Below are positions 12,211-34,546 of a DNA stretch of 64,000 nt, piece after piece; position 1 is the first letter of the stretch, and the number at the start of each line of letters is the position of its first letter. The notes under the pieces were generated by a model. It made no database searches. It was not told where the DNA came from and worked only from the letters and a program-made list of their open reading frames with translations. The translations under genes were made by a program, and so were the position numbers. The stretch comes from Curvibacter microcysteis (GTDB lineage: Bacteria; Pseudomonadota; Gammaproteobacteria; Burkholderiales; Burkholderiaceae_C): the NCBI RefSeq assembly GCF_028649455.1, contig NZ_JAQSIO010000003.1:186001-250000 (forward strand), in the 5' to 3' direction.

Positions 12211-13530
12211 ATGCCGCAATCCCTCACCGAACAATTGAGCCGCGAACAGCAAATTGCCGCCCTCGAAAAGGACTGGGCCCAAAACCCCCGTTGGAAGGGC
12301 ATCAAGCGCGGTTACACCGCCGCTGACGTGGTGCGTCTGCGTGGCTCCTTCCAAGTCGAGCACACCCTGGCCCGCCGCGGTGCAGAAAAGCTCTGGAACC
12401 TGGTCAACAACGAGCCCTACGTCAATTGCCTGGGCGCTCTGACGGGTGGTCAAGCCATGCAGCAAGTCAAGGCTGGTATCAAGGCCATTTACCTGTCGGG
12501 CTGGCAAGTCGCCGCCGACAACAACGAGTACTCGGCCATGTACCCGGACCAGTCGCTGTACCCCGTGGATTCGGTGCCGAAGGTGGTGGAGCGAATCAAC
12601 AACGCGTTCACCCGCGCTGATGAAATTCAATGGTCCAAGGGTGTGAACCCCGGCGATGCGGGCTACATCGACTACCACGCCCCGATCGTGGCCGATGCTG
12701 AGGCTGGTTTTGGTGGCGTGCTCAACGCCTACGAACTGATGAAGGCCATGATCCGCGCTGGTGCCGGTGGCGTTCACTTCGAAGACCAACTGGCTTCGGT
12801 CAAGAAGTGCGGTCACATGGGTGGCAAGGTGCTGGTGCCGACCCAAGAAGCGGTGCAAAAGCTGATCGCTGCCCGCATGGCTGCCGACGTCTACGGCGTG
12901 CCGACCCTGGTGATTGCCCGTACCGATGCTGAAGCCGCCGACCTGTTGACCAGCGACTATGACGAAAACGACAAGCCTTTCCTGACCGGTGAGCGCACCG
13001 CCGAAGGCTTCTACAAGACCAAGAAGGGCATCGACCAAGCCATCTCGCGCGCTGTGGCCTATGCCGACTACGCCGACCTGGTGTGGTGCGAAACCGGCAC
13101 GCCTGACCTCGAGTTCGCCAAGAAGTTTGCGGATGCCGTGCATGCCAAGCACCCCGGCAAGATGCTGGCTTACAACTGCTCGCCTTCCTTCAACTGGAAG
13201 AAGAACCTCGACGACGCCACCATCGCCAAGTTCCAGCGCGAACTGGGTGCCATGGGTTACAAGTACCAGTTCATCACCTTGGCTGGTATCCACAACATGT
13301 GGTACGGCATGTTCGACCTGGCCCAAGACTACGTGGCCCGCGGCATGTCGGCTTACGTCGAAAAGGTGCAAGAGCCCGAGTTCGCTGCCCGCGAGCGTGG
13401 CTACACCTTCGTGTCGCACCAACAAGAAGTGGGCACGGGTTACTTCGACGACGTCACCACGGTGATCCAAGGCGGCAAGTCCAGCGTGACCGCGCTGACC
13501 GGTTCGACCGAAGAAGAACAGTTCCACTGA
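12211..13530 (+). CDS. aceA: Isocitrate lyase
   Basis: This 439-residue enzyme of the glyoxylate shunt cleaves isocitrate to glyoxylate and succinate, allowing growth on acetate or fatty acids. The catalytic signature [14 protein letters not shown] is present at about residues 196-209. Around it lie the barrel motifs [32 protein letters not shown] and [13 protein letters not shown] typical of the family. A strong AGGAGTG ribosome site precedes the ATG. Codon use is strongly biased (CTG, AAG), suggesting high expression. It is monocistronic, with palindromic operators upstream and a UUCG-loop terminator downstream. Malate synthase is not in the window. Confidence 0.97.
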
Positions 13531-13551
13531 TCTGTTTGAGACTCCGCTTTC

Positions 13552-13575
13552 AACCCGGCTTCGGCCGGGTTTTTT
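13552..13575 (+). terminator. Intrinsic terminator of aceA
   Basis: AACCCGGC pairs with GCCGGGTT around a very stable TTCG tetraloop and is followed by TTTT. It lies 21 bases after the aceA stop and isolates aceA from the thrS promoter. Confidence 0.95.
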
Positions 13576-13608
13576 GTGGCTGTCGGAGGTGCTCTTGCCG
13601 TCTCAAAG

Positions 13609-13637
13609 TTGGCAGTCACTGGGCTTGCCGTTAAAAT
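13609..13637 (+). promoter_or_regulatory. Sigma70-type promoter of the thrS leader
   Basis: TTGGCA (13609-13614) and TAAAAT (13632-13637) are separated by exactly 17 bases; each matches consensus at five of six positions. Initiation would be near 13644, giving a leader of about 180 bases before thrS that contains the threonine-rich frame and a terminator. Confidence 0.75.
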
Positions 13638-13680
13638 CGAGAGATCTCAACCTGCAAGAGCGAGAAAGGCAAGACTGGTT

Positions 13681-13722
13681 ATGACACCGCGAACTACCCC
13701 GGAGACTCTCCTGGCCTCTTGA
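13681..13722 (+). CDS. Putative threonine-rich leader peptide of thrS
   Basis: A 13-codon frame encodes MTPRTTPETLLAS, with four threonine codons (ACA, ACT, ACC, ACT) among its first nine. GAAAGG lies 11 bases upstream of the ATG. The codons cover the segment CGCGAAC (13688-13694), which can pair with GTTCGCG (13731-13737). The latter can instead pair with the 5' arm of the terminator at 13766. A ribosome stalled on Thr codons for lack of charged tRNA would block the first pairing and favour read-through into thrS. The reading frame is seen; the mechanism is inferred by analogy with thr, his and pheST leaders. Confidence 0.7.
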   Translation: MTPRTTPETLLAS

Positions 13723-13765
13723 GGCCCAAGGTTCGCGCCTGCTCACTTTTCTTGCTTCCCAGATC

Positions 13766-13792
13766 AAAGCGCGGCCTTCACCGCGCTTTTTT
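13766..13792 (+). terminator. Attenuator terminator in the thrS leader
   Basis: AAAGCGCGG pairs with CCGCGCTTT around CCTTCA and runs into six T, 36 bases before the thrS start. Its 5' arm (GCGCGG, 13769-13774) is also complementary to TCGCGC at 13733-13738, giving an alternative antiterminator pairing. Lying downstream of a promoter and a Thr-rich frame, it is best read as a regulated attenuator and not as the end of a gene. Confidence 0.85.
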
Positions 13793-13827
13793 CTTGTCCG
13801 TTTTTCTCTGCTCAACCCACAGACAAC

Positions 13828-15735
13828 ATGATTCAGATCACGCTCCCCGACGGCTCCAAACGTGAATTTCCCGGTCCCGTGACCGTGGCCGAAGTGGCTG
13901 CCTCCATCGGCACTGGCCTGGCCAAGGCAGCCTTGGCCGGCAAGATTGATGGCAAAGTTGTGGACACCAGCCACACCATCACGGCGGACAGCCCACTGTC
14001 CATCATCACCGCCAAAGATGCCGACGGTCTGGAGGTGATCCGCCACTCGACAGCCCACTTGCTGGCTTATGCGGTCAAGGAGCTGTTCCCGGATGCCCAG
14101 GTCACCATTGGCCCGGTGATCGAGCACGGGTTTTACTACGACTTCTCCTACAAGCGCCCCTTCACGCCTGAAGATCTGGCCGCCATCGAGAAGCGCATGG
14201 GTGAATTGGCCGCCAAGGACGAGCCCGTGGTGCGCCGAGTGCTGCCGCGTGACGAGGCGGTGGCTTACTTCAAGGGCTTGGGTGAACACTACAAGGCCGA
14301 GATCATTGCGAGCATCCCGTCCAATGAGGATGTGTCGCTTTATCGCGAAGGCAATTTCGAAGACCTGTGTCGCGGCCCCCACGTGCCCAGCACGGGCAAG
14401 CTGAAGTTCTTCAAGCTCATGAAGGTGGCCGGCGCCTATTGGCGTGGGGATCACCGCAATGAAATGCTGCAGCGGGTATATGGCACGGCTTGGACCACCA
14501 AGGACGAGTTGCAGCAGTACCTGACCATGCTCGAAGAGGCGGAGAAGCGCGATCACCGCAAGCTGGGGCGCGAGCTGGACTTGTTCCACATTGACGAGCA
14601 CTCGCCCGGCACCGTGTTCTGGCATCCCAAGGGCTGGACCCTGTGGCAGGAGGTGGAGCAGTACATGCGCCGCGTCTACCGTGAGAATGGGTATCAGGAA
14701 GTCAAGGGCCCGCAAATCATCGACAAGTCGCTGTGGGAGAAGACGGGTCACTGGGACAAATACCGTGAAAACATGTTCACGACCGAGAGCGAAAAGCGTG
14801 ACTACGCGCTCAAGCCCATGAACTGCCCGGGTCACATCCTGATCTTCAAGCAAGGCATCAAGAGCTACCGTGACCTGCCGCTGCGCTTTGGCGAGTTCGG
14901 CCAATGCCATCGCAACGAGCCCACCGGGGGTTTGCACGGCATCATGCGCGTGCGGGCCTTCACGCAAGACGATGGCCACATCTTCTGCACTGAAGACCAA
15001 ATCCAATCGGAAGTGGTCGCCTTCACCACCTTGCTGCAAAAGGTCTACAAAGACTTTGGCTTCAGCGACATCATCTACAAGCTGTCGACCCGCCCTGAAA
15101 AACGCATTGGCTCGGAAGAGAGCTGGGACCGCGCTGAAAACGCCCTGGCCGAAGGTCTGCGCGCTTCGGGTTGCGAGTTTGAATACCTGCCGGGTGAGGG
15201 CGCTTTCTACGGTCCCAAGATCGAGTACACGCTCAAAGACGCGCTGGGTCGTCCTTGGCAGTGCGGCACCATCCAGGTGGATCCGAACATGCCCGAGCGT
15301 CTGGATGCGGAGTTTGTGGGTGAAGATGGCTCACGCCACCGGCCCATCATGCTGCACCGCGCCATCGTGGGCAGCCTCGAGCGTTTCATCGGGATTTTGA
15401 TCGAGCAGCACGCGGGCGCACTGCCCACATGGCTGGCGCCGGTGCATGTTTCGGTGCTCAACATCACCGATTCCCAGGCAGACTACTGTCGCGATCTGGC
15501 CAAATTGCTTGAGAATCAAGGGCTTAGGGTTCAATTGGATCTGCGCAACGAGAAAATTACGTATAAAATACGGGAGCATTCGTTGCAAAAGCTTCCTTAC
15601 ATCCTTGTCGTCGGTGACAAAGAGAAGGCAGCCGGTGCCGTCGCAGTGCGCGCCCGGGGGAACAAAGACCTCGGTGTGATGTCCCTTGAAGCCTTCTCTG
15701 AACTGATCGCCTCGGACATCGCTTCTAAAGCCTGA
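13828..15735 (+). CDS. thrS: Threonyl-tRNA synthetase
   Basis: This 635-residue class II synthetase charges tRNA-Thr. Domains in order are TGS (1-61, starting [14 protein letters not shown]), the editing/SAD domain with HxxxH (about 72-77, HSTAHLLAY) and the catalytic core. The core has MNCPGH with its zinc Cys (about 332-336), motif 2 ([14 protein letters not shown]) and motif 3 ([14 protein letters not shown]). An anticodon-binding domain follows (about 535-635). The length is normal. It heads the thrS-infC-rpmI-rplT-pheST group and is probably governed by the attenuator in its leader. Confidence 0.97.
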
Positions 15736-15819: not shown

Positions 15820-16416
15820 ATCGCTACTGAATTTCGTGATCGCCGCCAGCGGGAAGAGCGCAAGCACCGTCTGAACCGTGAAATCATGGCCCCGGAAGTT
15901 CGTCTTTCCGGCCCTGAGAACGAGCCCATCGGCATCGTCAGCCTGGCGGAAGCACTCCGCATGGCGGGTGAACTGGATGTGGATCTGGTTGAAATTGCGG
16001 CCACAGCGAACCCGCCTGTCTGTCGTTTGATGGACTACGGCAAGTTCAAGTATCAGGAGCAAAAAAAGGCTGCTGAAGCGAAGTCCAAGCAAAAAGTCAT
16101 CGAAGTCAAAGAAATCAAGTTCCGTCCAGGGACTGATGACGGCGACTACAACATCAAGATGCGCAACATCAAGCGCTTCTTGGACGATGGCGACAAATGC
16201 AAGATCACCTTGCGGTTCCGTGGTCGGGAAATCACCCACCAAGAGATCGGCATGGCCTTGTTGCAACGGATTCGTGACGAACTGGCTGACCTCATCGTGG
16301 TCGAGCAGTTCCCGAAGCTGGAAGGGCGTCAGATGGTCATGATGATCGCCCCTGGTAAGCGTCGGTCGGTGGCTGTCAAGCCTGATGCCGCACCAGCCGC
16401 GACCAGCGCAGCGTGA
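15820..16416 (+). CDS. infC: Translation initiation factor IF-3 (ATC start)
   Basis: This 198-residue IF-3 binds the 30S subunit and rejects non-canonical start codons. The N-domain begins [19 protein letters not shown], followed by [16 protein letters not shown]. The C-domain contains [19 protein letters not shown] and [16 protein letters not shown]. The rare ATC start at 15820 is chosen because IF-3 proteins extend upstream of the first in-frame ATG (15886) and TAAGGA sits nine bases away. Rare AUU/AUC starts are the known basis of infC autoregulation. An in-frame ATT at 15811 overlaps the ribosome site and is less likely. The tail is Ala/Pro-rich. Confidence 0.93.
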
Positions 16417-34260: not shown

Positions 34261-34546
34261 AGCGAGCGAACGCGCGCTCCCGGTGCGCTCGCCCCAGCCC
34301 TGTGCAAAAGGGGCTGCCCAGGCATGGCGGGCGGGGCCAATCGCGCACCGCGCTGGCGTCTCTACGTACTTTCGCGCACCAAGACAAGTCAGACATTCCT
34401 GTCCCTGGGCTGGGATTAGTGGCACAATCGCGTCCGCATAAGGCCCTTCCCCAGCCACTGTCGCATCCGCCAACCGGTTCAGCCGTGTCGCGGAAGGTTT
34501 ACTAACCAGCTAATGTTTCCCTCAGGGAAGCGGAGGTCAGCGGAAT

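Follow-up and report, generated by a model that had tools for sequence, protein, structure and literature searches.

The classical ribosome-mediated attenuators are the thr, his, ilv, trp and pheST leaders of enteric bacteria, in which a short frame is rich in codons for the cognate amino acid, a first RNA segment lies inside those codons, segments 1:2, 2:3 and 3:4 form alternative pairings, and an intrinsic terminator stands just ahead of the gene. Control of thrS, the gene for threonyl-tRNA synthetase (ThrRS), is familiar in other forms. In the textbook case, the operator of E. coli thrS, ThrRS binds a mimic of the tRNA-Thr anticodon and represses its own translation, and in the Firmicutes the T-box thrS leaders attenuate transcription according to tRNA charging, reading the tRNA directly and with no translation involved. 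Attenuation through a leader peptide is a known kind of regulation, and at thrS we found one precedent for it, thrL of Streptomyces lividans TK24, a Thr leader peptide (MKRVRPFLETTPGFVPAR) situated before thrS and proposed to be an attenuator (PMC8079986, in the part available to us). No thrS attenuator in Proteobacteria was found in the accessible portions of the literature, including those of PMC2965389, PMC4833913, PMC6315756 and PMC8910356, and a 2010 survey cited in PMC4833913 (Lopatovskaya, Seliverstov, Lyubetsky, Mol Biol 44:128) may already list thrS.

The leader described here lies ahead of thrS in 64,000 nucleotides of Curvibacter microcysteis DNA (the window, i.e., the whole stretch that was analysed), and we consider it very likely to be a ribosome-mediated transcription attenuator. 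It has each of the classical features listed above, and it falls within the sequence-based definition of the classical attenuators. Unlike the classical thr attenuator, it would control threonyl-tRNA synthetase and not threonine biosynthesis, and unlike classical attenuators in general it has an unusually conserved block at its start and, in the window's clade, a co-varying hairpin around its stop codon. With the E. coli operator it shares the gene and the outcome, ThrRS being kept in step with charging, but an anticodon-mimic hairpin of the E. coli type was not found in the window leader. With the T-box leaders it would share the attenuation of thrS transcription by the charging state of tRNA, and an Rfam scan gave no T-box match at the leader. 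As far as the available part of PMC8079986 goes, Streptomyces thrL resembles it in being a short peptide with Thr codons upstream of thrS and differs in having two Thr codons, a leaderless start and no clear terminator; thrL also belongs to another phylum and, on comparison of the published peptide by eye, is unrelated in sequence. The view of the initial annotation that a Thr-codon attenuator on thrS appears to lie outside the textbooks has to be tempered by the Streptomyces precedent.

The features of the leader are all on the forward strand. The preceding gene, probably isocitrate lyase, is followed by a separate terminator-like site (13552–13571). A sigma-70 type promoter, TTGGCA-17-TAAAAT at 13609–13637, is the predicted driver of the leader and thrS; it scores 10 of 12 matches and is the one such site in 13000–14500, versus a mean of 0.2 in shuffles. 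Of the 220 leaders that extend far enough upstream, 136 carry a TAnAAT hexamer between -72 and -44 relative to their ATG, where 2.95 were expected. The probable ribosome binding site, AGAAAGG (13663–13669), is separated from the ATG by 11 bases, a long spacing for such a site, and was recognised by its sequence and by conservation, A-15, A-14 and G-12 upstream of the ATG being kept in 92–95% of 224 leaders. The conserved block GGTTATGACACCGCGAAC surrounds the start codon (13677–13694), and the leader frame, MTPRTTPETLLAS, has 13 codons (13681–13722), of which four among the first nine are Thr (codons 2, 5, 6 and 9). The intrinsic terminator (13766–13792) consists of a hairpin at 13766–13789 followed by T's, and it ends 35 bases ahead of thrS (13828–15735, 635 aa), the predicted controlled gene, named here by recognition from its sequence and by synteny. 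Matches to thrS at E ≤ 0.001 were obtained in 60 of the 60 genomes searched, our own included, the exceptional ones being a weak match in G016 (7.1e-9) and matches in part or in pieces in G008 and G035; the thrS of a genome of the same genus, G006, is 98% identical to that of the window. The leader RNA (13643–13795) folds at -56.7 kcal/mol; the mean of 200 shuffles is -41.7 (sd 4.3), giving a z of -3.5. ARAGORN found no tRNA upstream of thrS in the window, and no Rfam family, Thr_leader and T-box included, reached its gathering score at this locus, either in the scan of the window or in that of 13600–13840, the latter giving three weak matches only (13.5–13.8 bits, E 2.0–4.3). Such a layout alone could be chance in GC-rich DNA; conservation shows that there is more to it.

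The mechanism that we propose runs as follows. Transcription would start just past 13637, and a ribosome would translate the 13-codon leader. With charged tRNA-Thr plentiful, the ribosome would reach the stop codon and leave, and segment 1 (CGCGAACT, 13688–13695), which lies within the Thr codons, would pair with segment 2 (AAGGTTCGCGC, 13728–13738), placing segment 3 out of reach; segment 3 (GCGCGGCCTT, 13769–13778), which makes up both the loop and the 5' arm of the terminator hairpin, would then be free of segment 2, the terminator would form, and thrS would remain untranscribed. With charged tRNA-Thr short, the ribosome would stall at Thr codons 5–6 and cover segment 1, and segment 2 would pair with its alternative partner, segment 3, as an antiterminator before the 3' terminator arm was made; the terminator would come too late, and thrS would be transcribed. 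A shortage of charged tRNA-Thr should thereby raise its own synthetase.

Promoter, frame, complementary segments and terminator all lie where the initial annotation had placed them. CGCGAAC (13688–13694) is complementary to GTTCGCG (13731–13737), and TCGCGC (13733–13738) pairs with GCGCGG (13769–13774), one of the pairs being G-U. The predicted antiterminator is longer than had been proposed, AAGGU-u-CGCGC (13728–13738) with GCGCGGCCUU (13769–13778), and the proposed set of elements, itself borne out, had omitted a hairpin that encloses the stop codon (GGCCT/AGGCC, 13713–13726), in which RNAfold pairs 13713–13717 with 13722–13726.

Folding computations predict that, once a ribosome stalls, segment 2 exchanges segment 1 for the terminator arm as its partner. 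In the window, the upstream pairing of segment 3 before the 3' arm is made is 0.13 with no ribosome on the leader and rises to 1.0 when one is stalled at codons 5–7, and the means for 86 leaders are 0.54 and 0.88, respectively; with segment 2 of the same 86 leaders shuffled, they are 0.71 and 0.75, i.e., a mean gain on stalling of 0.344 for native leaders versus 0.039 for shuffled ones. When the 3' arm is added to the stalled leader of the window, the terminator is again part of the minimum-energy fold, and since the terminator wins at equilibrium, antitermination must be kinetic, with the antiterminator forming first. A ribosome at the stop codon masks segment 2 incompletely (0.88 in the window, mean 0.645, with footprints that were simple and differed slightly), so termination under plenty probably needs release of the ribosome and re-pairing of 1:2.

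The block GGTTATGACACCGCGAAC was found, with at most 2 mismatches, in 158 of 200 same-family genomes; as a chance control, the block pattern read backwards matched 24 of 200 at the same threshold. Among the exact matches listed for titled genome records, 117 of 119 precede thrS by less than 600 bases, 2 are too close to a sequence end to tell, and the genera represented include Burkholderia, Paraburkholderia, Cupriavidus, Massilia, Janthinobacterium, Undibacterium, Variovorax, Rhodoferax, Comamonas, Acidovorax and Roseateles. This position puts the block, and with it a short frame rich in Thr codons, ahead of a gene for the charging of that same amino acid. In same-family genomes anchored on thrS (own included; L052 and L090 were dropped as they had no thrS), the block is upstream in 28 of 33 and exact in 26 of the 28, and the leader is missing in five (L007, L008, L015, L018 and L030). 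L007 and L008, two same-genus genomes of 2.4 and 2.3 Mb, have lost the leader peptide but still have the terminator and, close to it, a TAAAAT box that resembles a promoter element.

For further analyses, 224 distinct leaders were assembled, 115 from the genome set and 109 from titled records. They were gathered via the 18-base block (exact, or with at most 2 mismatches) and retained if the core of the block had one of six spellings; part of the constancy of codons 2–5 among them therefore stems from this selection. Codons 6–12 lie outside the search pattern, and there Thr accounts for 465 of 1547 codons in frame, whereas reading the two other frames gives 17 and 53. At codon 6, 169 of the 224 leaders have Thr, spelled ACG in 64, ACA in 44, ACC in 36 and ACT in 25, and codon 7 is Thr in 114. 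That Thr is kept with free third positions, and in one frame only, shows at the level of sequence that selection acts on the amino acid, and selection of that sort would imply that the leader is translated. By the rule that we applied, a terminator is present between leader and gene in 212 of the 224.

The sample was extended to other families of the same order, with 97 genomes whose regions upstream of thrS were examined (L260–L339 and L033–L050). A tRNA gene, always tRNA-Val, lies upstream of thrS in 71 of the 97, and a leader may for that reason be transcribed from the tRNA promoter; in 24 of the 97 the tRNA-Val ends at most 110 bases from thrS, leaving no room for a leader, and with these excluded from the Thr count, 73 regions remained. 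Short frames in which 3 or more of 5 codons are Thr occur in 23 of the 73 (0.6 expected) and frames with 4 or more in 13 (0.0 expected), the other 50 staying below 3 in 5. None of the control residues (Ala, Gly, Pro, Val, Ser, Leu, Arg and Cys) came near the Thr enrichment in these 73 regions, the largest excesses being Val, 4 versus 0.7 expected, and Ser at the level of at least 4 of 5, 1 versus 0.0. Only 4 of the 97 regions have the exact block. The peptides with Thr runs (for example MSFRTTTTGTLNLG, MFKRTTTTRISR, MKHWRTTTTRYSHAC, MFRTSTTTQS and MQLNRTTTTS, and also MAVRTTTTHP, inside which the listed best frame begins) diverge while the Thr run persists, often directly after an Arg codon (CGAAC). 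It had been reasoned at the outset that the attenuator would fall if related genomes conserved neither Thr codons nor competing pairings; both are conserved, and in the thrS upstream regions of relatives the Thr-rich frame, the competing pairings and the terminator all recur. The presumed thrS attenuator is conserved widely in the order and is very probably functional.

The sequence of segment 2 differs by clade, being GTTCGCG in the window's clade (58 leaders) and TAGTCGGCCGCGG, GTAGTCCGCGCG or CTAGTCGAGG in others (34, 18 and 27 leaders), with 87 of the 224 fitting none of the four forms. Judged by eye, each form is matched by a corresponding partner in the terminator: TCGCGC has GCGCGG in the window's clade, CTAGTCG has CGGCTAG in Massilia-like leaders, and TCGAGG has CCTCGA in Burkholderia and CCTTGG in Cupriavidus. 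Pairing energies were compared after the 12 leaders without terminator had been left out, using 87 nonredundant leaders of the 185 within limits. Bearing in mind that the permutation and rank tests ignored relatedness, so that their strength is an upper limit, segments 2 and 3 pair at -14.66 kcal/mol with their own partner versus -13.42 when partners are swapped between species (0 of 20000 permutations as good, z -5.5); the whole 5' part pairs with segment 2 at -24.74 versus -23.51 (again 0 of 20000); and relative to the mean of shuffles of segment 2, pairing 1:2 is stronger in 69 of the 87 leaders and 2:3 in 79. Swapping partners had a weak effect on segment 1 alone (codons 2–8) with segment 2 (z -1.6), a consequence of how little segment 1 differs between leaders. 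A direct pairing of segment 1 with segment 3 was also considered; it is possible, but showed no co-evolution (z -0.4), and it was not adopted.

Rows for alignment were picked by segment 2 form, and the three alignments comprise 38 of 44, 26 of 37 and 17 of 17 selected leaders. In alignment A1 (the window's clade, 38 rows selected for TCGCG), pairs changed on both sides in 34 cells versus 14.4 in shuffles, with 21 of these cells in the stop-codon hairpin and 13 on the loop side of the terminator. All five pairs of the stop-codon hairpin vary on both sides and 85.7% of its cells are paired, in a register that is one base off in the window. Helix 1:2, nearly invariant in A1, showed no covariation there (0 cells), and in clades A2 and A3 RNAalifold recovered the terminator and small local hairpins and not 1:2, so that pairing energies, in place of covariation, carry the case for 1:2 outside A1. 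With segment 1 inside the Thr codons, the 1:2, 2:3 and 3:4 pairings come out by computation as mutually exclusive.

One property of the leader is not what attenuation would lead one to look for. Codons 2–4 (ACA CCG CGA) hardly vary among the leaders, third positions included, even though five genes of the window seldom use ACA (7 of 116 Thr codons, 6.0%) or CGA (9 of 160 Arg codons, 5.6%). This near-invariance exceeds what attenuation needs, and pairing with segment 2 leaves that of ACA unaccounted for. A structured RNA that binds ThrRS or another protein, an autogenous control like that of E. coli thrS in which the Thr codons would be incidental, is a reading favoured by an 18-base block whose invariance goes far beyond the needs of a leader peptide, the rare ACA and CGA third positions included. 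It draws also on the sister orders, where, among 40 of the 77 other-order genomes with a thrS match (L340–L379, mostly from the top of the list), 21 have upstream of thrS a hairpin with the signature of the tRNA-Thr anticodon arm. The loops of these hairpins are CGT in 15, GGT in 5 and AGT in 1, and 20 of the 21 begin 33–44 bases before thrS; a looser hairpin scan of the same orders gave 18 of 40 versus 3.8 expected. In our leaders the same signature is absent from the last 75 bases before thrS (0 of 224), its 6 matches in the 97 other-family regions are the T arm of tRNA-Val, and hairpins with a CGT loop are at chance (20 of 224 with 21.5 expected, and 15 of 97 with 11.4 expected). Retention of Thr from codon 6 on, with its free third positions and single frame, and of Thr codons in divergent families that lack the block, also speaks against protein binding, and we regard this reading as improbable.

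A Thr-rich leader is found in at most 1 of the 40 other-order genomes, 0.6 being expected. An enrichment of Val there (9 versus 1.3) was discarded as an artefact, as several of the listed frames run through a tRNA-Val gene. In the regions scanned the two types of control were not seen together, which points to replacement of one by the other, and suggests that a large order in the class of E. coli (classes being as grouped by the genome tool) controls thrS by a different logic, with sensing by the translating ribosome instead of by the enzyme ThrRS.

The near-invariant start could also be read as an arrest leader, in which nascent MTPRT would stall the ribosome on some other signal and the Thr codons would merely tune the response. 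The MTPRT start is indeed near-invariant in the window's own family, but MTP is lost in many leaders of other families (MFRT, MSFRT, MAVRT, MNFRT), in which the Thr runs stay, and arrest peptides usually act when longer, making this reading less probable still than protein binding. Least credible of all is that the terminator simply marks an end of transcription or acts as a partial terminator (in other families that of the tRNA-Val gene immediately upstream) and that the leader frame is a product of chance, as might be read from the tRNA-Val genes that leave no room for a leader and from the two same-genus genomes that keep the terminator without it, given that the window has no upstream tRNA, a preceding gene with its own terminator-like site and a mere 35 bases between terminator and thrS, and given the Thr statistics and competing pairings that speak for a leader.

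With attenuation retained as the preferred reading, the start block may still hold something more. GGU and ACC can form a mini hairpin whose loop holds the start codon AUG, invariant in the aligned leaders, and alternative GCG/CGC stems, seen by eye in some relatives (L034, L262, L265, L266 and L321), suggest such a start-codon hairpin, short of proof. Speculatively, and with rather less than even expectation that it will hold, the thrS attenuator of Burkholderiales could be a dual device. Sensing of charged tRNA-Thr would fall to the Thr codons, and the block would hold a second layer (a start-codon hairpin, an RNA polymerase pause signal or the nascent peptide MTPRT) that sets the timing of leader translation or responds to some other signal; the device as a whole would stand in for the ThrRS anticodon-mimic operator of the sister orders.

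A regulatory replacement at an essential gene becomes directly testable in easily grown bacteria, and the leader is a candidate sensor of Thr starvation common to the genera with the exact block. The 224 leaders are, in addition, natural variants in which to study the co-evolution of leader codons, pairings and terminators.

Some minor observations concern thrS and its surroundings. Three genomes (G237, G281 and G320) have second, divergent copies of thrS, with 56–58% identity to the window protein. Downstream of thrS, a frame with its first ATG at 15886, presumably infC, reaches upstream of that codon (15820–15885) and, judged by eye, apparently starts with an ATC codon at 15820, resembling the AUU start codon of E. 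coli infC, which serves the autoregulation of IF3. Farther along the window, a sucA RNA motif (RF01070) lies on the forward strand at 34461–34542, with a score of 87.8 bits.
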